64,000 nt of DNA from Haloplanus ruber (GTDB taxonomy: Archaea > Halobacteriota > Halobacteria > Halobacteriales > Haloferacaceae): contig NZ_JANHDK010000001.1 in the NCBI RefSeq assembly GCF_024494725.1, positions 1,116,001 to 1,180,000 on the forward strand. The letters run 5' to 3'. Positions 38,386-50,460 of this stretch are shown here, piece after piece; the stretch's first letter is position 1; the number at the start of each line of letters is the position of its first letter. Made by a program: the position numbers and the translations under genes. The notes below the pieces were generated by a model. That model ran no database searches. It was not told the origin of the DNA and saw only the letters and a list, made by a program, of their open reading frames with translations.

Positions 38386-38535
38386 ATGGGCAAGCTCAGC
38401 GATACGAAGATTTCGGAGAAGAACCTCACCACCGTCCCGAAACCGGTACGAACCTTTCTCGACATCGGCGCCGGCGACCGGGTCGAGTGGCACGTCGAGG
38501 AGGGCCGGATCGTCGTCGAGCCTCAGGACGACTAG
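38386..38535 (+). CDS. AbrB/SpoVT-type small DNA-binding protein
   Basis: The product is a 49-residue protein: MGKLSDTKISEKNLTTVPKP begins the swapped-hairpin fold, followed by VRTFLDIGAGDRVEWHVEEG, the characteristic G-DxVxW end of AbrB/MazE domains. Such proteins are dimeric DNA-binding regulators or antitoxins; no toxin gene (PIN or similar) is adjacent, which favours a regulator. Its stop (TAG at 38533-38535) overlaps the convergent mocA stop by 4 nt. AT-rich sequence near 38343-38360 may be its promoter. Confidence 0.85.
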   Translation: MGKLSDTKISEKNLTTVPKPVRTFLDIGAGDRVEWHVEEGRIVVEPQDD

Positions 38536-39137
38536 AGGTCGTCGGGTTCGTCGACGTCGCGCCGGACGCCGGGGTCACCAGTCTCGACGAGTTGCCCGTG
38601 TTCGAGGAGGAGTTCCCGCCCCCCGACGTCGCCGGTCACGTCGGCGAGAGCGTCGAAAAAGCGGTCGGCGAAGAGTACCGGATTCCCTCGTGTGCCGTCG
38701 TGTGCGGCCGCGAGCGCGTCGCCAACCCCGGCAGCGTGGGCGTCGACGAGTCGTTCGACGCTGGCCGGCGTGACGAACGGCATGTCGCCGAGAGCGACGA
38801 CGACCGCCGAGGCACGATCACGGACCGCGTCGACGCCGACCCGGACCGAAGACGCTTGGCCGCTCGCGTAATCCTCGTTGTAGGCGAGTTCCACGTCGAG
38901 GTCGGCGAGTGCGGCACGGACTCGGCCGGCCTCGTGGCCGACGACGACGGCGACCGGGTCGACCGGCGCATCGAGGAGCGTCCGCGCGGCGTGACGAACG
39001 AGCGGATCGCCGTCGTGGGTCGCGAGCAGTTTGTTGCGGTCACCGTACCGGTCGCTAGTGCCGGCGGCGAGGAGGACACCGGCGACCGACGACGAGTCCG
39101 TGGCGTCGAACGGCGGGGTGACGACCGGGAGACTCAT
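38532..39137 (-). CDS. mocA: MocA-like molybdenum cofactor cytidylyltransferase
   Basis: The product is 201 residues. The nucleotidyltransferase loop is VAGVLLAAGTSDRYGDRNKL; the metal and base sites are GDPLVRHAART, VVVALGDMPFVTP and GTRGNPVLF, as in the MobA/MocA family. Family members attach GMP or CMP to molybdopterin. CO dehydrogenase and related enzymes use molybdopterin cytosine dinucleotide, and this gene lies next to moeA and the cox locus, so CMP transfer (MocA) is the likely role, inferred from context. Its start overlaps the moeA stop by 4 nt. Confidence 0.8.
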   Translation of the reverse strand: MSLPVVTPPFDATDSSSVAGVLLAAGTSDRYGDRNKLLATHDGDPLVRHAARTLLDAPVDPVAVVVGHEAGRVRAALADLDVELAYNEDYASGQASSVRVGVDAVRDRASAVVVALGDMPFVTPASVERLVDAHAAGVGDALAAAHDGTRGNPVLFADRFFDALADVTGDVGGRELLLEHGQLVETGDPGVRRDVDEPDDL

Positions 39138-40354
39138 CGCTCGACGACCGGGTAGGGGACCACCTCGACTGCGTCACCACGGTCGACCGCCGACTCGGTG
39201 AGGACGAAGCCGTCGGCCCGTGTCGCACGCGTGCTCGACGAGAGGACACTGGGATCGAAGGTGTCCTCGTACACCGACAGCGGGGAGTCGGCGTGACCGA
39301 GGGGGGTGGCCGTCCCGTCGTCGAGGGTGACGGGGACCGCGTAGGTGAAGCCGGGGGCGCCGATGCCGACGGCGCGAGCCAGTCGTGCCGTAACGGTCGG
39401 AAGTGCGGTGTCGCCGGTGAAAAACGGGCGGGCGACGAGGCTCGTGACGGCGTGGGCACCGACGGGTTTGCCGGGGATAGCGAAGGCAACGGCGTCGTGA
39501 TCGGGGAGTTCGGCGACGGCGATGGGCTTTCCCGGGCGCAGGCGCACGCGGTGGAAGTGAATCTGGCCGAGGCTGTCGAGTGCCCGTACCACGAAGTCCT
39601 TGTCGCCGACGCTGGTCCCGCCGGTGGTCATCACCACGTCGTGGTCACGTGCGAGCGCCGCGATGCGCGACTCGACGCGGTCGTAGTCGTCGGAGACGGT
39701 CCCCTCGTAGGTAGCCTCGTGACCCCACGACCGGACCAGGCCGGCGAGCATCGCGGAGTCGAGGTCACGCTGGCTCCCCTCGTGAATCTCGGTGCCAGTC
39801 GCCAGCAGCCCCACCGAGAAGCGGTCGCGGACGGCCACCGATTCGACGCCGAGGTCGGCGAGTAGAATGGCGTCCTTGGGACCGAGACGTTCTCCGGCCG
39901 CGAACAGTCGTTCGCCCTCGGCGACGTTGCTCCCGCGCTCGTAGACGTAGGTCCCGGGGTCGAGGTCGGTCCCGTCGAGTCGGCCGTCCGTGACCCGTGC
40001 CTCCTCGCGTTTCAACACCGCGTTGGCCCCTGCTGGGAGCGGGGCACCCGTGGCGATGCGGGTCGCCTCGCCGGCGTCGATGGCGCCAGGGTCGTCCTCC
40101 GGAAAGACCTCGGTGTCGACGACGTCGAACGGGTAGGAATCGGTCGCATCGAAGGCAAACCCGTCCATGGTGGCGTGACTGTGTGCGGGGACATCGACCG
40201 GAGCATCGATTGGCTCGGCGACGGTGCGGCCGGCGATGCGGTCGAGCGGAACCGTCTCGATCCCCAGACGTGACAGCCACGCTTCGCGGAGGGCACTGAC
40301 CCGTTCGGCAGCCTCGTCACAGTCGATCAGATCGTCGTGGGTGTGGTCCGACAT
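39134..40354 (-). CDS. moeA: Molybdopterin molybdotransferase MoeA
   Basis: The product is 406 residues. It inserts molybdate into adenylylated molybdopterin. Motifs include VPAHSHATMDGFAF (substrate loop), ATRIATGAPLPAGANAVLK, FSVGLLATGTEIHEG, VMTTGGTSVGDKDFV and IPGKPVGAHA. The arrangement moeA-mocA, transcribed away from the CO dehydrogenase operon, points to a dedicated cofactor supply for it, though moeA may also serve other molybdoenzymes. The promoter is in the 145-nt region shared with coxG. Confidence 0.93.
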   Translation of the reverse strand: MSDHTHDDLIDCDEAAERVSALREAWLSRLGIETVPLDRIAGRTVAEPIDAPVDVPAHSHATMDGFAFDATDSYPFDVVDTEVFPEDDPGAIDAGEATRIATGAPLPAGANAVLKREEARVTDGRLDGTDLDPGTYVYERGSNVAEGERLFAAGERLGPKDAILLADLGVESVAVRDRFSVGLLATGTEIHEGSQRDLDSAMLAGLVRSWGHEATYEGTVSDDYDRVESRIAALARDHDVVMTTGGTSVGDKDFVVRALDSLGQIHFHRVRLRPGKPIAVAELPDHDAVAFAIPGKPVGAHAVTSLVARPFFTGDTALPTVTARLARAVGIGAPGFTYAVPVTLDDGTATPLGHADSPLSVYEDTFDPSVLSSSTRATRADGFVLTESAVDRGDAVEVVPYPVVER

Positions 40355-40499: not shown

Positions 40500-41096
40500 A
40501 TGAACTTCGAAGGCGAATTCGAGCTGGAAAGTGTACCACCGGAGACGGCGTGGAGTGTTCTCTCGGACCCGATGGCGGTTCGCGACGCACTGAAGGGGTG
40601 CCGGTATATCGCCCCGATGGACGACGACTTCAATTTCGACGAGTACGAGGCCGAGGAGGACGTCGAGATGCTCCCGGAGGCCGACCCGGACGAGGTGGCA
40701 GACCGGGCGTTCGTCGCCGGCCAGAAGTACGCGGCGCTGATGCAGGTGGGCGTCGGAAGCGTGAAACCACAGTTCGAGACGACGGTCACCATCACGGATC
40801 GTGACGACGAGACCTTCGAGATGCTAGCGAGCGGTGGCGGCGATGCGAGCGGGAGCAGTTTCAGCATGAACTCGGGGATGCGTATCCACGAGTTGGATGA
40901 CGGCGAGGGGTCGCGGATCGAGTGGTGGACCGAAGCCGACATCTCGGGCCGCATCGCACAGCTCGGGTCCCGGGTCATCAAGCCCGTCTCCAATAAGATC
41001 GTGAACAACTTCTTCAACAACATCGAGCAGCAGATGACCGACGTCGACGAGGAGGCCGACAGCGGCGTCACCGACAGGCTGCGCAACATGCTATGA
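40500..41096 (+). CDS. coxG: CoxG-like SRPBCC protein of the CO dehydrogenase operon
   Basis: The product is 198 residues and begins MNFEGEFELESVPPETAWSV. It belongs to the SRPBCC/START-fold CoxG family, which in bacteria links CO dehydrogenase to the membrane or the quinone pool. A strongly acidic insertion sits at about residues 41-72 (MDDDFNFDEYEAEEDVEMLP and onward), compared with a usual CoxG length of ~150-200. The C-terminal helix SNKIVNNFFNNIEQQM is amphipathic. First gene of the operon, overlapping coxM by ATGA. Confidence 0.85.
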   Translation: MNFEGEFELESVPPETAWSVLSDPMAVRDALKGCRYIAPMDDDFNFDEYEAEEDVEMLPEADPDEVADRAFVAGQKYAALMQVGVGSVKPQFETTVTITDRDDETFEMLASGGGDASGSSFSMNSGMRIHELDDGEGSRIEWWTEADISGRIAQLGSRVIKPVSNKIVNNFFNNIEQQMTDVDEEADSGVTDRLRNML

Positions 41097-41980
41097 AGGC
41101 CGCATCGTTCGAACACCACGAGCCGACGACGGTCGAGGAGGCGGTGAGCCTGCTGGAGAGTCTCGACGAGCCGACGATTCTCGCGGGCGGGCAGAGTCTC
41201 GTCCCGATGCTCCGGTTTCGGCTGGCACGGCCCGACACCGTCATCGACATCAACGGCATCGACTCGCTCGAATACCTCCACGAGGAGGACGGCTACCTGC
41301 GGATCGGCGCCCTGGCCCGTCACGCCGATGTCGAGGACACGGACGTCATCGCGGACCGCTACGGGAGTTTCGCCGACGCGGCACCGCTGATCGCGGACCC
41401 CCAGATACGGAATCAAGGCACCGTCGTGGGGTCGATGGCACAGGCCGATCCCAAGGGCGACTGGGGAAGCGTCCTCATCGCCCACGACGGCGAGGTGACC
41501 GCGCGGGGACCGGACGGCGAGCGGACCATCCCCGTAGACGAACTCTTCCTCCTGCCGTACGACACGTCGCTGATGGACGACGAACTCCTGACGGAGGCTC
41601 GCGTCCCGGCGCCGGTCGAGGGCGAGGGAAGCGCGTACCACAAGCTGAAACGCAAGACCGGCGACTACGCCATGGCCGGGGTAGCGGCTCGACTCGTCCT
41701 GGACGACGACGGCCGGATCGAGGACGCGGGCATCGGCATGACCGCCGTGGACATCACGAACGCCCGCGCGGCCGACGCGGAGGCCCACCTCGAGGGTGAG
41801 CGGCCAAGCGCCGACCTGTTCGAAGAGGCCGGCGAGTTGGCTGCCGAGGCGTCGAACCCCGAGTCGGACGAACACGGCGATGCCGGGTACAAAGAGCGGA
41901 TGGTCGACGTGCTGACGCAGCGAGCGCTCGGCGACGCCGCGGAGCGTGCCGGCGCGGTCAAGCGGAGGGTTCCACAGTGA
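41093..41980 (+). CDS. coxM: CO dehydrogenase medium (FAD) subunit
   Basis: The product is 295 residues. FAD binding is seen in the two flavoprotein motifs, [19 protein letters not shown] and [16 protein letters not shown]. The subunit carries electrons from the 2Fe-2S centres to a quinone or other acceptor. The C-terminal CODH_C domain (about residues 180-280) is present. It overlaps coxG by 4 nt (ATGA) and coxS by 4 nt (GTGA). Full length for the family. Confidence 0.93.
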
Positions 41981-42627
41981 CTGACAAACGCGAAATCACG
42001 CTGACGGTCAACGGTACCGAGCGGACGGTCGAGGCCGAGCCGCGCAAACTGCTCGTCCACGCCATCCGCGAGGACCTGGACCTGACTGGCACTCACATCG
42101 GCTGTGACACGGGTAACTGCGGCGCCTGTACCGTCCTCAAGGACGGCGAGCCGATCAAGTCCTGTCTGACCTTCGCGGTCCAGGCCGACGGAAGCGAGAT
42201 CATGACCGTCGAAGGGATGGAGGATCTGCCCGAGGCGAGCGGCGAACTGCACCCGCTGCAGGAAGGGTTCCGCGAAGAACACGGGCTGCAGTGTGGCTAC
42301 TGTACGCCGGGCATGATCATGTCGGGGAAGGCCCTGCTGGACGAGAACCCCGACCCCGAGGAGGGCGAGATCCGGGAGGCAATCAGCGGCAACCTCTGTC
42401 GGTGTACTGGTTACCAGAACATCGTCAAATCCATCGAGTACGCCGCCGACGAGTTGAACAAGGAGCCAGCGGCCGCGGACGGCGGCACTGTCACCGCCGA
42501 GCAGCGGTTTGCGGACGACGACTTCGACTGCGGCGTCGAGAACTGCTGTGGCGGCCCATCGACGGAGACGCCCCACGTCGAGGGTGCAGATCCGCAGTTC
42601 GACGACGTTGGAGGTGACGACACATGA
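41977..42627 (+). CDS. coxS: CO dehydrogenase small (2Fe-2S) subunit with Cys-rich tail
   Basis: The product is 216 residues from a GTG start. The N-terminal plant-type 2Fe-2S site has [12 protein letters not shown], and the second cluster domain has [12 protein letters not shown] and CRCTGY. The family is about 160 residues long; here a tail of about 50 residues is added, containing [10 protein letters not shown] with three cysteines. The tail is absent from the classical bacterial CoxS as I know it. The GTG overlaps coxM, and the stop overlaps coxL by ATGA. Confidence 0.92.
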
Positions 42628-45119
42628 GCAGCGAATCAGACAACACGACCGAACCGACGGAGTACCAACACGACGACGACGGTGGGCCACAGCCCGAGAA
42701 ACACTGTGGCCACGGCCGTGGCGGAATGGGCGAGGAGGTCACCCGCAAGGAGGACAAACGCTTCATCACCGGTCGCGGCAACTACGTCGACGACATCAAG
42801 AAGCCGCGGATGCTCCACTGCGAAATCGTCCGCAGTCCGCACGCTCACGCGCGGATCGAGGACATCGACGGCTCGCGGGCGATGGCGCTCGACGACGTGG
42901 TGGCGGTGTTGACCGCCGACGACCTGCTCGAACACGGCCTGGCGACCATGCCGACGCTCATGGACGACACCCAGGACGTGCTCGTCAACGACAAGGTGAA
43001 GTTCCAGTCCCAGGAGGTGGCGGCGGTCATCGCGACCGACCGCTACGCCGCAAAGGACGGGGCCGAGAAGGTCGAAGTAGAGTACGACGTCCTCGATCCG
43101 GTCATCGGCGCCGAGGAGGCACTGGAGGACGACGCGCCGGTCATCCGCGAGGAACTCGACGATCAGGACGACAACCACATCTTCGACTGGGAGACCGGCG
43201 ACGCGGAGGCGACCGATGCGGTGTTCGACGCGGCGGACGTAACCGTCGAAGAGCAGATGGAGTACCAGCGCCTCCACCCGGCACCCATCGAGACCTGTGG
43301 CTGCGTGGCCGACTGGGACCCTGGCGACGACAAGATGACGGTCCACATGACCTCGCAGGCACCCCACGCACACCGCACCCTGTTCTCACAGGTGTCGGGA
43401 ATCCCCGAACACAAGGTTCGGATCGTGAGCCCGGACGTGGGCGGTGGCTTCGGTAACAAGGTGCCGATCTACCCCGGCTACGTCGTCGCCGCCGCGGCGT
43501 CGTACGTCCTCGAACGGCCGGTGAAGTGGGTCGAAGAGCGCTCGGAGAACATCCAGACGACGGGGTTCGCCCGCGACTACGACATGACGGGCGAACTCGC
43601 CGCGACGGAGAACGGCGAGATCAAGGGTGTGAAAGTCGACGTGCTCGCCGACCACGGCGCGTACAACGCGGCGGCCCAGCCGTCGAAGTTCCCGGCCGGC
43701 TTCTTCAACATCTTCACGGGGTCGTACGACATCGAGGCGGCCCACGGGTCGTTGACGGCGGCGTACACCAACACGGCCCCCGGCGGGGTCGCCTACCGGT
43801 GTTCGTTCCGCGTCACCGAGGCGGTCTACCTCATCGAGCGGATGGTGAAGGTACTCGCGGACGAACTCGACCTCGACCCCGCGGAGATCCGTCGGCGGAA
43901 CTTCATCCCCTCGGATGCGTTCCCCTACGAGTCCGCCACCGGGTGGAACTACGACTCCGGCGACTACGAGAAGGCGCTCGACAAGGCGCTGGAGATGGCC
44001 GACTACGACCACTACCGCGAGGAACAGCAGCGGCGGATCGAGGAAGACGCCGACAAGCTGATCGGCATCGGCATCTCCTCGTTTACCGAAGTCGTCGGCG
44101 CAGGCCCCGGCAAGCAGTGTGACATCGCGGGCATCGAGATGTTCGACTCCGCGGACCTGCGGGTGAACCCGACGGGCAACGCGGTGTTGCGGGTCGGCGT
44201 CCAGACACAGGGTCAGGGACACGAGACGACGTTCGCCCAGATCATCGCCGAGGAACTCGGGATGGACGTCGACAACATCGTCGTCGAACACGGCGACACG
44301 GACACGGAGCCGTACGGACTCGGCACCTACGGCTCGCGGTCGACCCCTGTCGCGGGCGCGGCGGCCGCCGTCGCCGCCCGGAAGGTGCGCGATAAGGCCA
44401 AATCCATCGCCGCCAACGAACTCGAAGCGGCGGAGGAGGACATCGAGTGGGACCGCGAGTCCGGCGAGTTCCACGTCGCTGGCGCCCCGGAGCGCTCGAT
44501 CACGATCACCGAGATTGCGGCGGGCGCCTACATGAACCACCCCGGAAGCGAGGAACCCGGGCTGGAGGCGACGAACTACTACGACCCACCGGAGATGACC
44601 TATCCGTTCGGGTCGTACATCGTGATCGTCGAGGTCGACCGCGAGACCGGCGAGGTCGACTTCGAGAAGTTCGTCGCCGTCGACGACTGTGGCAACCGTA
44701 TCAATCCCATGATCATCGAGGGGCAGATCCACGGCGGCCTCGCCCAAGGGATCGGCACCGCGATGATGGAACACGTCACCTACGACGACAACGGGAACGT
44801 CACGGGTGGCGACTTCATGAACTACCTCCTGCCGACGGCCAAGGAGATTCCCAACTTCGATACAGGGCATACGGTCACGCCCTCGCCCCACCACCCCATC
44901 GGCGCGAAGGGCGTCGGGGAGTCGCCGACGGTGGGATCGCCGCCGGCCATCGTCAACGCCGTCGTCGACGCGATGAGTCACTCCGGCGTCTCGCACGTCG
45001 AGATGCCGATGACACCCGACGCGGTCTGGGAAGCGCTGGACGAGGCCGAACTCACGCTCGAACCCAGCGCGAACGTCGACTTCGCGTTCGACACGAGTGA
45101 AGAGCCGGCCGACGACTAA
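42624..45119 (+). CDS. coxL: Form I CO dehydrogenase large (Mo-Cu) subunit
   Basis: The product is 831 residues. The active-site loop is VAYRCSFR (AYRCSFR at residues 390-396), with Cys393 as the copper-coupled sulfur ligand. This is the exact signature of form I CoxL (AYXCSFR), whereas form II has AYRGAGR. The catalytic Glu appears as Glu766 in KGVGESP, near Glu763 of Oligotropha. Mo-cofactor contacts are seen in [13 protein letters not shown] and [14 protein letters not shown]. The first ~55 residues are an acidic haloarchaeal extension. The enzyme oxidises CO to CO2 with release of two electrons. Confidence 0.95.
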
Positions 45120-45166: not shown

Positions 45167-46201
45167 ATGACACGGGACGACACGCGACGGGACGAATCGA
45201 GCGACGACGGGGCTGCCTTAGAGCGGGCGCTCGCGGAGCGCGGCGAGGCGTACGCGCGGGTGACGGTCGTCCGCCGCGAGCCACCGGTCTCCGCGAACGT
45301 CGGTGATCGGGCGGTCGTGACGCGGTCGGGTGAGATTCACGGCTGGATCGGCGGCATGTCGTGTGCGCAGTCGATCGTCAGCGAGCAGGCGACAGCCGCC
45401 ATCGAGGACGGCGAGCCACGCCTGCTCGGTATCGCCCCCGACCCCGACACGGTCGACCGCCCGGGGGTGTCGGCGTTCCCCATGCAGTGTCACAGCGAGG
45501 GCGTCCTCGAACTGTTCGTCGAGCCGGTGACGCCGGCGCCGGAACTGCTCGTTGTCGGCGGATCGCCAATCGCGCGGTCGCTCGCGCGACTGGCCGCCGA
45601 ACTCCCCGTCGACGTGACGGTCGTGGACCCGGACGGCAACGCCGACGGCCTGCCGGCGGGAACGGCGGTGACGGCGACCACCGACCCGGAGGACATCGCC
45701 GCGGAGGTGGGGACGGCGCCGCTGGTCGTCGTCGCCTCGATGGGCGGCTACGACGCTCGCGGGGTGGCGGCCGGCGTCCACGCCGACGCAGGCTACATCG
45801 GTCTCGTCGCCAGCGACACCCGGTGTGCGGAGGTGATCGAGCGGGCGGCCGGTCTCCTGGACCGCGACCCGGACGCAGTGGAGGCGGCGGTGACGAACCC
45901 CGCCGGGGTCGACATCACGGCCCACACCCCGCCGGAAATTGCCGCGAGCATCCTCGCGGAGGTGGTCGACGTGCGGGCGCGGGCTGTGGGTGCCGACGCC
46001 GAGGGCGAGACGGACACGGCTCCCGACACCGACGCCGACGCGACCGATCCGGTGTGTGGCATGACGGTTACACCCGACGAGGCGGCCGCGAGCGTCCACC
46101 ACGACGACGAGACGTACCACTTCTGCTGTCGCGGCTGCGCTGACTCGTTCCGTGCCGATCCAACGGCGTATCTGGAGGAGGACTCGACGGCCCCAGCATG
46201 A
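45167..46201 (+). CDS. XdhC-family maturation protein fused to a YHS domain
   Basis: The product is 344 residues. Residues 20-115 are an XdhC N-domain (PVSANVGDRAVVTRSGEIHG, MSCAQSIVSEQ), residues 120-255 the XdhC Rossmann domain (PELLVVGGSPIARSLARLAA). After an Asp/Thr-rich linker, the last ~45 residues are a YHS/TRASH domain, DPVCGMTVTPDEAA and YHFCCRGCADSF, a metal-binding module often next to copper transporters. XdhC proteins deliver sulfurated Mo cofactor; the YHS fusion could bring copper for the Mo-Cu site (inference). It overlaps coxD by 4 nt. Confidence 0.87.
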   Translation: MTRDDTRRDESSDDGAALERALAERGEAYARVTVVRREPPVSANVGDRAVVTRSGEIHGWIGGMSCAQSIVSEQATAAIEDGEPRLLGIAPDPDTVDRPGVSAFPMQCHSEGVLELFVEPVTPAPELLVVGGSPIARSLARLAAELPVDVTVVDPDGNADGLPAGTAVTATTDPEDIAAEVGTAPLVVVASMGGYDARGVAAGVHADAGYIGLVASDTRCAEVIERAAGLLDRDPDAVEAAVTNPAGVDITAHTPPEIAASILAEVVDVRARAVGADAEGETDTAPDTDADATDPVCGMTVTPDEAAASVHHDDETYHFCCRGCADSFRADPTAYLEEDSTAPA

Positions 46202-47130: not shown

Positions 47131-48501
47131 ATGGCCCCAAGCGACGACCCGGACGCCGGTCTCGACGCCCCGCCGACGGACGGCCGCGACGACCTGCCCG
47201 ACTTTCGCGCTGCGCGACAGCACGTGCTGATCGAGACGATACGGCTCGGCGGGATGCTCCGACGCGAGGGCGTCTCCGTCCCGACCAGCGGATCGCTGGC
47301 GGCGGCACGTGCGCTCGCGACCGTCGGACTGGGTGACCGAGACGCCGCCGAGGCAGCGCTACGAGCGACGCTCGTCTCCGAGGCGTCGGGTCTCGACGCC
47401 TTCGACGAGGCGTTCCCCGAGTTCTGGCACCGGCTCCGGTCGGGCCTCGACGCCATCGCGACGGACCACGAGGGACCGTCGCCGGAGAGCGGAGAGGGCG
47501 ACGACGACCCCGTGGCCGACAGCGATTCGACCCCCGACGACCCTGGGCTGCTTGCGGACGCGGAGGCCCCGGAGATGAACGGGGACGGCTCGGGCGACGT
47601 GGAGGTGCGGGTTCCGACGGAGCGCCGGCACGTGACGGGCGACCGACCGGCCGAGACGGGAGACGGAGACGCCAGGCGATACAGCGCCGTCGGCGAGGGT
47701 GGCCAGGTCGACGTGGACGCGGCGGAGTTGACCGTCGCGGAGTCCGCGGCCATCGAGCGGTTCGTGGACGCACTCGCGACCCTCCCCGGGCGGCGCCAGC
47801 AGGCGTCGCGGACGGGCGACCGGGTGGACGCGCGACGGGCGCTCCGGGCGAGCCTAGAGACGGGGGGCGCGGCTATCGACCTGCCGCGTCGGGAGCCGAC
47901 GCCCAGTGAACTCCGGTGTTGCCTGCTCGTCGACGTGAGCGGATCGGTGCTCGACACCGTGGATCGGAGCGTCCTGCTCGCGTTCGCGGACCGACTGCAC
48001 GCGAGCGCCCGAGACGCGCGAGTGTTCCTTTTCGATACCGACCTCCGCGACGTGACGGCACAGTTCGACCGGGCAGGCGGCGACCCGGCGGGCGCGCTCC
48101 GGGACGCCGCGGTGGAGTGGGGCGGCGGCACCGAAATCGGTGGGGCGTTCACGACGCTCCGGCGGGACCATCCCCACGCAGTCGACCGGCGGACGGCCGT
48201 CATCGTCGTCAGTGACGGCCTCGACGTGGGCGACGAGGACGTCCTGAAGGACGGCGTGACGTGGCTGGCAGACCGCGCGGGCGCGCTGCTCTGGCTCAAC
48301 CCGCTCGCCGTGTCGTCGGAGTTCGAGCCTCGGTCCCGCGGGATGGCGACGTGCGAGCCGTACGTCGACGCGCTCTTTGGCTTCGCCCAACCGGCCGACC
48401 TCGCGGAGGCGGCCCGACAGATCGAACGCCGGGGCCTCACCGGCCCGGTCGGGTACGAGTACGACCGTCGGCGGAACGGATCGGGGGGTGACGGGTCGTG
48501 A
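47131..48501 (+). CDS. coxE: CoxE-like VWA domain protein
   Basis: The product is 456 residues. A central Asp/Glu/Gly-rich low-complexity region (about residues 110-180) separates an N-terminal helical part (DLPDFRAARQHVLIETIRLG) from a C-terminal VWA domain with the MIDAS motif CCLLVDVSGSVLDT and VIVVSDGLDVGDED. CoxE partners CoxD in maturation of CO dehydrogenase and in copper insertion. It overlaps the next gene by 4 nt. Length is slightly above typical because of the linker. Confidence 0.9.
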   Translation: MAPSDDPDAGLDAPPTDGRDDLPDFRAARQHVLIETIRLGGMLRREGVSVPTSGSLAAARALATVGLGDRDAAEAALRATLVSEASGLDAFDEAFPEFWHRLRSGLDAIATDHEGPSPESGEGDDDPVADSDSTPDDPGLLADAEAPEMNGDGSGDVEVRVPTERRHVTGDRPAETGDGDARRYSAVGEGGQVDVDAAELTVAESAAIERFVDALATLPGRRQQASRTGDRVDARRALRASLETGGAAIDLPRREPTPSELRCCLLVDVSGSVLDTVDRSVLLAFADRLHASARDARVFLFDTDLRDVTAQFDRAGGDPAGALRDAAVEWGGGTEIGGAFTTLRRDHPHAVDRRTAVIVVSDGLDVGDEDVLKDGVTWLADRAGALLWLNPLAVSSEFEPRSRGMATCEPYVDALFGFAQPADLAEAARQIERRGLTGPVGYEYDRRRNGSGGDGS

Positions 48502-49304
48502 CGGCGTCGGTGATCGCGCGGGTCGCTGACCGTCTCCGTGCCCGTGGCGCGACGGAGAGCGCGAGCGTCGACCGGATCACCGTCGGAGACGCCGTCGTGC
48601 TGGTGGAGCTATCCGACGCGGCCGGTCTCGCCCATCGGCCGCCGGGTGACGTACCGCCGACGGACGACATCGACATCGGGCGCCTGCTGACGTGGGCGAT
48701 GGACGACACAGCGGCCACCCCCGTTCGGCGGGCGCTCGGCATCGCGACGCTGAACGCGCTGTCGGCCCCCCACGTCGAGTGGCGGACGGGCGATCCGATG
48801 GCGTTGCTGGACCCCGCGGTGGATCGGGTGACGACGGTCGGCCTCTTTCGCCCCGCCCTGCGGAAGTTCGCGGACGTGACCGTGCGCGTGATCGAACGGA
48901 CCCCGGTCGGCGACGTGTCGGCACCGGCGGGCGTCCAAGTGGAGACGTTCACGCCGGACGAGACGGCAACGGCGATGGCAGAGACTGAAGTGGTCTTTCT
49001 CACCGGCTCGGCGTTCGTCTACGGGGGGGCGGCCCGGTATCTGGACGCGGCACCGGCGACAGCGACCCTGGTCGTCGTGGGGGCGACGGCCTCCGTGCTG
49101 CCCGGGCCGCTGTTCGATGCGGGCGCGGACGTCGTCGCCGGAGCAGCCGTCGAGGACGCCACGCGAGTCCGAACGGCGGTTCGGCGGGGCGCCTGTGGAA
49201 CGGAACTGCACGACGCCGGCGTTCGGAAGGGCTACGTCGCGGCCGACCGAGCGGACGGCGTGCGACTCGATGCGACCGACGGAGTGAGCCATGACACAAC
49301 GTAA
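48498..49304 (+). CDS. DUF364-type Rossmann-like protein, putative metal chelation
   Basis: The product is 268 residues from a GTG start. It shows a DUF4213-like N-terminal part and a C-terminal Rossmann-like domain with VVFLTGSAFVYGGAARYLDA and LVVVGATASVLPGPLF, as in DUF364 proteins suggested to chelate heavy metals. Its location between coxE and a second XdhC gene within the co-transcribed operon suggests a part in Mo/Cu site assembly. It has a single Cys (in RRGACGTELHD). Not a standard cox gene in bacteria as far as I know. Confidence 0.78.
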   Translation: MTASVIARVADRLRARGATESASVDRITVGDAVVLVELSDAAGLAHRPPGDVPPTDDIDIGRLLTWAMDDTAATPVRRALGIATLNALSAPHVEWRTGDPMALLDPAVDRVTTVGLFRPALRKFADVTVRVIERTPVGDVSAPAGVQVETFTPDETATAMAETEVVFLTGSAFVYGGAARYLDAAPATATLVVVGATASVLPGPLFDAGADVVAGAAVEDATRVRTAVRRGACGTELHDAGVRKGYVAADRADGVRLDATDGVSHDTT

Positions 49305-50460
49305 CTGGAGTGTACCGGAGACGGAAGTCGTACAGCGCATCCGCGACCGACTCGACGCGGATGGAACGGACGTCCTCGCGACGGTGGTCGACATCGAGGG
49401 GAACGCCTACCGGCGACCGGGGGCGAAGATGCTCCTCGACGCCGAGGGGACGGGCGTCGGCAGCATCACCGCTGGCTGTCTGGAGGACGAACTCGTCCAG
49501 GTCGCAAGCGAGGTCAGAGCGGCCGGCGAGCCCCGACTCGTCACGTACGACCTCATGGAGGACGACGAGGGCGACGTCTGGGGGCTGGGCGTCGGCTGTA
49601 ACGGCGTCATCGAGGTGTTGCTCGAACCCCTGACCGAGACGTACCGCCCGGCGGTGTCGGCGTTTGCCGACGGCCGGGACGTCGCCGTCGTCACGGTGCT
49701 CGACGGTGACGACGGGCCACTGGAGCGTGGCGACCGCGCGTACTACGACCCCGTGGACGGCTCGCTGTCGACGCCCGCGGCAGACCCCGCGGCCTGGCCG
49801 GCGGACGCACTGGCCGGCTCGGCGGCCGACTTAGCCGAACGCGGTCGGGCGGCCACCGTGACGGTCGACGGACTGACGCTGTTCGTCGACGGGCTGTCGG
49901 CGCCGCCGGAGCTCGTCGTCTTCGGAACCGGCCACGACGTGGGACCGGTGACAGAGCTGGCCGCGAAAAGCGACTTCCGCGTGACGGTCGTCGGCTTCCG
50001 TGGCGCGGTCGACCTCGCGGACCAGTTCCCGGCCGCGGACCGAGCGCTGACCACCTCGCCCGCGTCGATAGCGGACGACCTCACGCTCGGCGGGAACACG
50101 TACGCGGTCGTGATGACCCACAACTTCGTCGACGACCGGCTGACAGTCGAGGCGTTGCTCGATGCGTCGGTTCCCTACGTCGGCTTGATGGGACCTCGCG
50201 ACCGATTCGAGGAGATGCGCGACGCCTTCGACGAGGAGGGGCGGACGTTCACCGAGGCGGAACTGTCGTCGCTGTACACGCCGGTCGGTCTCGACCTCGG
50301 CGGGGGCTCGCCGTACCAGATCGCTCACAGCATCGTCGCGGAGGTACTAGCTGTCGCCAACGACCGAACGCCACGACACCTGAAGGCCCGAGAGGGGCCG
50401 ATCCACGAGCGAGTGGACGTCGACGCGGGGGCAGACGCCGACACGGGCGTCCCTCGATAG
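49291..50460 (+). CDS. XdhC/CoxF-family sulfur-insertion chaperone
   Basis: The product is 389 residues. It has the XdhC N-domain (YRRPGAKMLLDAEGTGVGSI, TAGCLEDELVQ, GVGCNGVIEVLLEPL) and a Rossmann C-domain (PPELVVFGTGHDVGPVTELA, MTHNFVDDRLTVEALLD, LGGGSPYQIAHSIVAEVLA). Such proteins bind Mo cofactor and present it for sulfuration before insertion into CO dehydrogenase or xanthine dehydrogenase. It is the CoxF/CoxI-like counterpart, and the second XdhC of this operon. It overlaps the previous gene by 14 nt. Confidence 0.88.
   Translation: MTQRNWSVPETEVVQRIRDRLDADGTDVLATVVDIEGNAYRRPGAKMLLDAEGTGVGSITAGCLEDELVQVASEVRAAGEPRLVTYDLMEDDEGDVWGLGVGCNGVIEVLLEPLTETYRPAVSAFADGRDVAVVTVLDGDDGPLERGDRAYYDPVDGSLSTPAADPAAWPADALAGSAADLAERGRAATVTVDGLTLFVDGLSAPPELVVFGTGHDVGPVTELAAKSDFRVTVVGFRGAVDLADQFPAADRALTTSPASIADDLTLGGNTYAVVMTHNFVDDRLTVEALLDASVPYVGLMGPRDRFEEMRDAFDEEGRTFTEAELSSLYTPVGLDLGGGSPYQIAHSIVAEVLAVANDRTPRHLKAREGPIHERVDVDAGADADTGVPR

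Follow-up and report, generated by a model that had tools for sequence, protein, structure and literature searches.

What does a DUF364 protein do in the middle of a CO dehydrogenase operon? In the window, that is, the whole 64,000-nucleotide stretch of the Haloplanus ruber genome that was analyzed, a gene for such a protein forms part of an operon with the order coxG, coxM, coxS, coxL, XdhC1 (YHS), coxD, coxE, DUF364, XdhC2 (Table 1). The original prediction, made from the letters of the window, placed a DUF364-type reading frame between coxE and the second XdhC gene, overlapping both, and this arrangement is borne out, with overlaps of 4 nt and 14 nt. The N-terminal part of the protein (residues 17-89) matches PF13938 (DUF4213; E = 3.6e-8, 34 bits against a cut-off of 23.5), and residues 108-241 match PF04016 (DUF364; E = 5.7e-20, 71.9 bits against a cut-off of 23). 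The protein contains a single cysteine, and a search of the whole genome found no second DUF364 gene. The large subunit of the operon is of form I, as judged from its score against TIGR02416 (1207.5 bits, cut-off 991.15) and its AYRCSFR motif. The moeA gene keeps its divergent place by coxG in most haloarchaeal form I operons, and the probable MocA-type reading frame that adjoins it has a counterpart in Natronorubrum bangense, annotated there as "nucleotidyltransferase family protein" beside MoeA. The XdhC-YHS fusion seen in XdhC1 also occurs in the cox clusters of Thermomicrobium and Deinococcus and is absent from Afipia CoxF. CO uptake has been demonstrated in four other haloarchaeal genera (PMC6794299).

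Table 1. Features of the form I cox operon and the adjoining genes in the window (coordinates are positions in the window).
Feature	Position	Strand	Basis
Probable MocA-type nucleotidyltransferase adjoining moeA	38532..39137	-	ORF, sequence, Natronorubrum bangense counterpart
MoeA (molybdopterin molybdotransferase), divergent from operon	39134..40354	-	PF03453, PF00994
coxG	40500..41096	+	PF06240
coxM, FAD subunit	41093..41980	+	PF00941, PF03450
coxS, 2Fe-2S subunit	41977..42627	+	PF01799, PF00111
coxL, form I CO dehydrogenase large subunit	42624..45119	+	TIGR02416, AYRCSFR motif
XdhC1 with C-terminal YHS/TRASH-type domain, in the CoxF position	45167..46201	+	PF13478, PF02625, PF04945 (YHS)
coxD, MoxR-type AAA+ ATPase, 309 aa	46198..47127	+	PF07728 (AAA_5) E = 6e-13; phmmer ortholog of form I coxD elsewhere
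coxE, VWA-domain protein, 456 aa	47131..48501	+	PF05762 (VWA_CoxE) E = 1.6e-40
GTGA, 4-nt overlap of coxE stop and DUF364 start	48498..48501	+	sequence
DUF4213-DUF364 two-domain protein, 268 aa, GTG start	48498..49304	+	ORF; PF13938 and PF04016 over cut-off
14-nt overlap of DUF364 end and XdhC2 start	49291..49304	+	sequence
XdhC2, second XdhC-family protein	49291..50460	+	PF13478 E = 5.6e-30, PF02625

DUF364 is a near-fixed part of the haloarchaeal form I CO dehydrogenase operon. In a sample of 341 Halobacteria genomes drawn evenly across the class, 35 have a form I coxL and 42 a DUF364 gene over the respective cut-off; DUF364 is present in 34 of the 35 genomes with form I coxL and in 8 of the 306 without it (Fisher p ~5e-38, a nominal value, the genomes being related). 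Many congeneric relatives in the sample lack both genes, and because the operon is thus patchily distributed within genera, the association does not reflect one inherited event. In 33 of the 34 genomes with both genes, DUF364 follows coxL on the same strand, 1.5-4.5 kb downstream; in the remaining genome (G293), coxL and DUF364 are found near the ends of different contigs that both end in coxE fragments, which indicates that the operon was split by assembly. The order coxG-M-S-L-XdhC1-coxD-coxE-DUF364-XdhC2, with a divergent moeA, is constant among related loci. Among the 31 related loci in which coxE is adjacent, 27 offer DUF364 a start codon that would overlap coxE by 4 nt, so that the coupling of these two genes is conserved and not a product of chance; at the junction between DUF364 and XdhC2, most related loci have either a short gap or an overlap of 4 nt. 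The operons that keep DUF364 span six families, and their DUF364 proteins have a mean pairwise identity of 0.57, with ~40 residues invariant throughout.

The exceptions are few. One genome (G126) keeps coxGMSL, XdhC1, coxD, and coxE, with DUF364 and xdhC2 missing at the locus, and DUF364 was not found anywhere else in that genome. In two others (G159 and G245), coxD, coxE, and xdhC2 are missing at the locus and DUF364 still adjoins XdhC1; another XdhC and a VWA_CoxE protein are encoded elsewhere in each genome. Conversely, two genomes, G212 and G312 (loci L053 and L055), have lost form I coxL and kept the DUF364-xdhC2 pair, in G212 together with coxD and coxE; because xdhC2 encodes the only XdhC in either genome, the pair may have been kept for its sake. 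In the DUF364 tree, all cox-linked copies fall into one clade (support 100/99), within which the orphan copies of G052, G084, G276, and G320 are nested; these look like leftovers of lost operons. The copies of G001 and G007 form a sister branch to the cox clade. It could be argued from the loss in G126 and from the retention in G212 and G312 after coxL had gone that DUF364 is a passenger, inherited with the operon, kept by coupling, and unimportant for CO oxidation. Its presence in 34 of 35 operons across six families, loci without coxD, coxE, and xdhC2 included, and the number of residues that have stayed invariant at this level of divergence make such an explanation very improbable.

The tie is to the form I enzyme and not to the form II-like one, since DUF364 is found in only 5 of the 105 Halobacteria genomes whose large subunits all score below the form I cut-off (form II-like) and since the form II (AYRGAGR) operon that the Haloplanus genome itself carries at ~739-747 kb (G000:C1) is without DUF364. 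An association with form II was rejected, as 5/105 does not differ significantly from the 3/201 seen in genomes with neither form (p = 0.13). The form II-like operon of the Haloplanus genome (locus L093, G000:C1 737000-752000) shares coxG, S, L, M, D, E, and one XdhC with the form I operon but, unlike it, has no YHS-XdhC among the genes found. Two further MoCoBD_1 proteins are encoded in the same genome, at C1 ~374 kb and C4 ~286 kb.

This specificity bears on the idea that DUF364 serves the supply or homeostasis of molybdenum (or tungsten) for the operon and not the assembly of the active site. Other archaeal DUF364 genes do lie beside transport-related genes: among the 80 co-directional neighbors at 40 such loci, there are 13 ABC ATPases, 10 periplasmic binding proteins, and 10 QRPTase genes (with ModD and NadC scores about equal for the last), and the STRING context of the family is one of molybdate, tungstate, vanadium, and iron transport (PMC2954201). 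However, transporter genes do not adjoin the haloarchaeal copies, and the form II molybdenum enzymes, equally dependent on molybdenum, are mostly without DUF364, so that we regard a supply function as improbable. In some genomes of methanogen relatives (loci L233-L237 and L243), DUF364 is found among paired MinD/Mrp-type ATPases with ferredoxin domains.

Outside Halobacteria, the picture is a different one. When GTDB species genomes were screened with a coxL alignment led by bacterial sequences, 80 non-haloarchaeal form I loci came up, distributed over Chloroflexota (Thermomicrobia among them), Bacteroidota, Gemmatimonadota, Acidobacteriota, Deinococcota, Bacillota, Thermoplasmata, Nitrososphaeria, and further groups. 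Within 10 kb on each side of coxL (less on short contigs), a DUF364 homologue was found at none of the 80 loci, with a search profile that was built from haloarchaeal copies and that distant relatives could escape. When whole genomes were searched with the Pfam model, PF04016 was present anywhere in 1 of 50 of these form I genomes, on a separately numbered contig not matched to the contig with coxL, and no DUF364 turned up at the coxL locus of that genome. There is no DUF364 in the pHCG3 cox cluster of Afipia (Oligotropha) carboxidovorans or in the cox clusters of Thermomicrobium roseum and Deinococcus, and a plasmid collection gave one match, inside the form I operon of Natronorubrum bangense. 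DUF364 is not mentioned in a 2026 survey of marine CO dehydrogenases (PMC13240472). Because the CoxL proteins of Halobacteria group separately, as one clade (PMC6794299), and the loci sampled in other lineages lack DUF364, the gene can be taken as a marker of the operon of the halobacterial CoxL clade.

These results divide what had been claimed for the protein at the outset. That DUF364 lies outside the classic cox gene set is confirmed by the Afipia pHCG3 cluster and the 80 other loci, and the suggested count of DUF364 genes near form I coxL gives a clear enrichment in Halobacteria (34/35) and none near the 80 loci elsewhere. The proposal of a shared job in building the Mo-Cu site holds in part: the tie to the form I operon in Halobacteria (34/35 versus 8/306) makes a haloarchaeal addition to the assembly pathway plausible on the grounds of operon structure, but a general factor for the Mo-Cu site is rejected, as DUF364 is absent from the Afipia cluster, from all 80 loci, from 49 of 50 genomes, and from the form I operon of G126. 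In Afipia, it is CoxD, CoxE, and CoxF that are required for the [CuSMoO2] cluster (PMC4240915). DUF364 is not needed for Mo-Cu assembly in general, nor does it look like a metal store. Metal storage or delivery had been read from the Pfam family label, and the label of heavy-metal chelation was itself derived from genome context (PMC2954201); with one cysteine in the protein, storage is poorly supported, and we do not uphold the claim in that form.

Structural relatives offer another view of the protein. A profile of 21 haloarchaeal orthologues matches the solved structures 3npg (E = 3.3e-12) and 3l5o (Dhaf4260; E = 0.008). The conserved residues of DUF364 lie in an interdomain pocket, and the authors of the structure proposed an enzyme of flavin or pterin derivatives (PMC2954201); among the openly available papers found to use the term DUF364, this is, judging by titles and abstracts, the only one that addresses the structure or function of the family. 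We compared 36 cox-clade rows with 40 DUF364 proteins of archaea that belong to the same phylum but to other classes. N86, G115, E133, and T169, which correspond to N83, G129, E148, and T174 of Dhaf4260, are invariant (1.00) in the cox clade, whereas the pocket positions D180 and T182 of Dhaf4260 are Y175 and G177 in all cox-clade rows; in the other archaeal proteins, the first of these positions is N or D, and more often N, in 34/40 and the second T or S in 38/40. Membership in the Pfam family is unaffected by these substitutions, but it is less sure, from such a residue comparison, that the chemistry is shared with other DUF364 proteins. C233 and H238 are found in 36/36 cox-clade rows and H46 and W95 in 97%; among the 40 other proteins, C233 is absent, H46 is not conserved, and H238 occurs in 9. 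The sister-branch haloarchaeal proteins (loci L049 and L050, in two genomes without a coxL-like gene) have neither C233 nor H46, and at L049 a dimethyl-sulfoxide-reductase-like set of ORFs was noticed by eye a few kb from DUF364. An AlphaFold2 model computed without an alignment (pLDDT 34) was left out of the evidence, and homology between DUF364 and XdhC was rejected (profile comparison probability 0.2%). The distance correlations between DUF364 and other operon proteins (coxE 0.82, XdhC1 0.80, moeA 0.63) are likewise not taken as evidence, because shared ancestry explains most of them.

The conserved histidines and cysteine raise the question of whether DUF364 might bind and deliver Cu(I), or hold molybdenum or copper, through His46, Cys233, and His238. 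The near-complete conservation of these residues, with C233 and H46 specific to the clade, is in line with this, as is the restriction of DUF364 to form I, the copper-containing kind. Yet a protein with one cysteine would have no storage capacity, in bacteria, form I enzymes receive their copper with no DUF364 in the operon, and XdhC1, with its YHS/TRASH-type domain and a PMxCHS motif resembling the suspected copper site of CoxF (PMC4240915), would be the better donor. We therefore consider a copper or metal-holding function of DUF364 unlikely; going by domain and motif, XdhC1 is a likely copper donor.

Operon membership alone cannot tell maturation from regulation or electron-transfer roles, and DUF364 might act away from the metal site altogether, in protein stability at molar salt, in coupling to the membrane or an electron acceptor, or in regulation by a bound metabolite. 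The restriction to haloarchaea would fit such a lineage-specific need, and so would the altered pocket motif. However, DUF364 is placed between two cofactor-maturation genes and not by coxG or a regulator, and we give these possibilities only a small chance of being correct.

The gene belongs to the form I operon, at a fixed position and specifically there, is absent from the form I loci sampled in other lineages, and has all its cox-linked copies in a single clade. We propose, tentatively and with slightly less than even confidence, that it is an accessory gene dedicated to the haloarchaeal form I enzyme, with a role in cofactor maturation or upkeep. Position and fold make the handling of the molybdenum cofactor the most likely such role, and DUF364 would probably be a local helper, specific to this operon, and not a general builder of the Mo-Cu site. 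An archaeal two-domain DUF4213/DUF364 protein would have joined the cox operon once and travelled along with it since. Once the coxMSL apoenzyme and CoxD, CoxE, and XdhC have been made, DUF364 would act to mature or maintain the cofactor, most likely by binding the molybdopterin-nucleotide cofactor, or a pterin- or nucleotide-like molecule, in the interdomain cleft; the bound cofactor might then be handed on or altered together with CoxE and XdhC2, the products of the flanking genes. The persistence of DUF364 beside XdhC1 in G159 and G245, despite the local loss of coxD, coxE, and xdhC2, favors a cofactor role, as do the conserved pocket proposed for flavin- or pterin-like ligands, the ABC transporter and ModD/NadC-like neighbors of other archaeal DUF364 genes, and the adjoining moeA and MocA-type genes. 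Against it stand the otherwise equipped operon of G126, the bacterial form I operons, whose enzymes mature regardless, the replacement of classic pocket residues by Y175 and G177, because of which the cox-clade proteins may not share the reaction of other DUF364 proteins, and the orphan copies within the cox clade that persist without form I coxL. A more specific version, which we hold to be possible but rather doubtful, is that of a haloarchaeal-only maturase, a DUF364 enzyme rebuilt around Tyr175, Gly177, His46, and Cys233 that would modify or hand over the molybdopterin cofactor, or load copper, so that the Mo-Cu site assembles in a cytoplasm of molar salt.

If the maturase reading is true, DUF364 would for the first time have a defined function; the family has had solved structures since 2010, and we found no established function for it in the literature. 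Because DUF364 goes almost one to one with a single enzyme, and the organisms are open to genetic work, its function can be tested directly. More broadly, the maturation gene set of aerobic CO dehydrogenases differs among lineages, with consequences for the heterologous expression of the haloarchaeal enzyme and for the choice of marker genes for haloarchaeal CO oxidizers.

Compared with the coxMSLDEFG cluster on Afipia pHCG3, the haloarchaeal operon has coxM, S, L, D, E, an XdhC-type F, and coxG in common and differs in the extra DUF364 gene, in having coxG first, in the fusion of YHS to the first XdhC, and in the divergent moeA. The clusters of Thermomicrobium roseum and Deinococcus resemble that of the window in combining form I coxL with a YHS-bearing XdhC but, unlike it, are without DUF364. 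At the level of the protein, the cox-clade DUF364 shares with 3l5o (Dhaf4260) and 3npg the two-domain layout and the N, G, E, and T pocket residues, and is set apart from them by Y175, G177, and the clade-specific H46, C233, and W95. The operon partners differ as well, being ABC transporters and ModD-like genes for other DUF364 proteins and the form I CO dehydrogenase for the cox clade.
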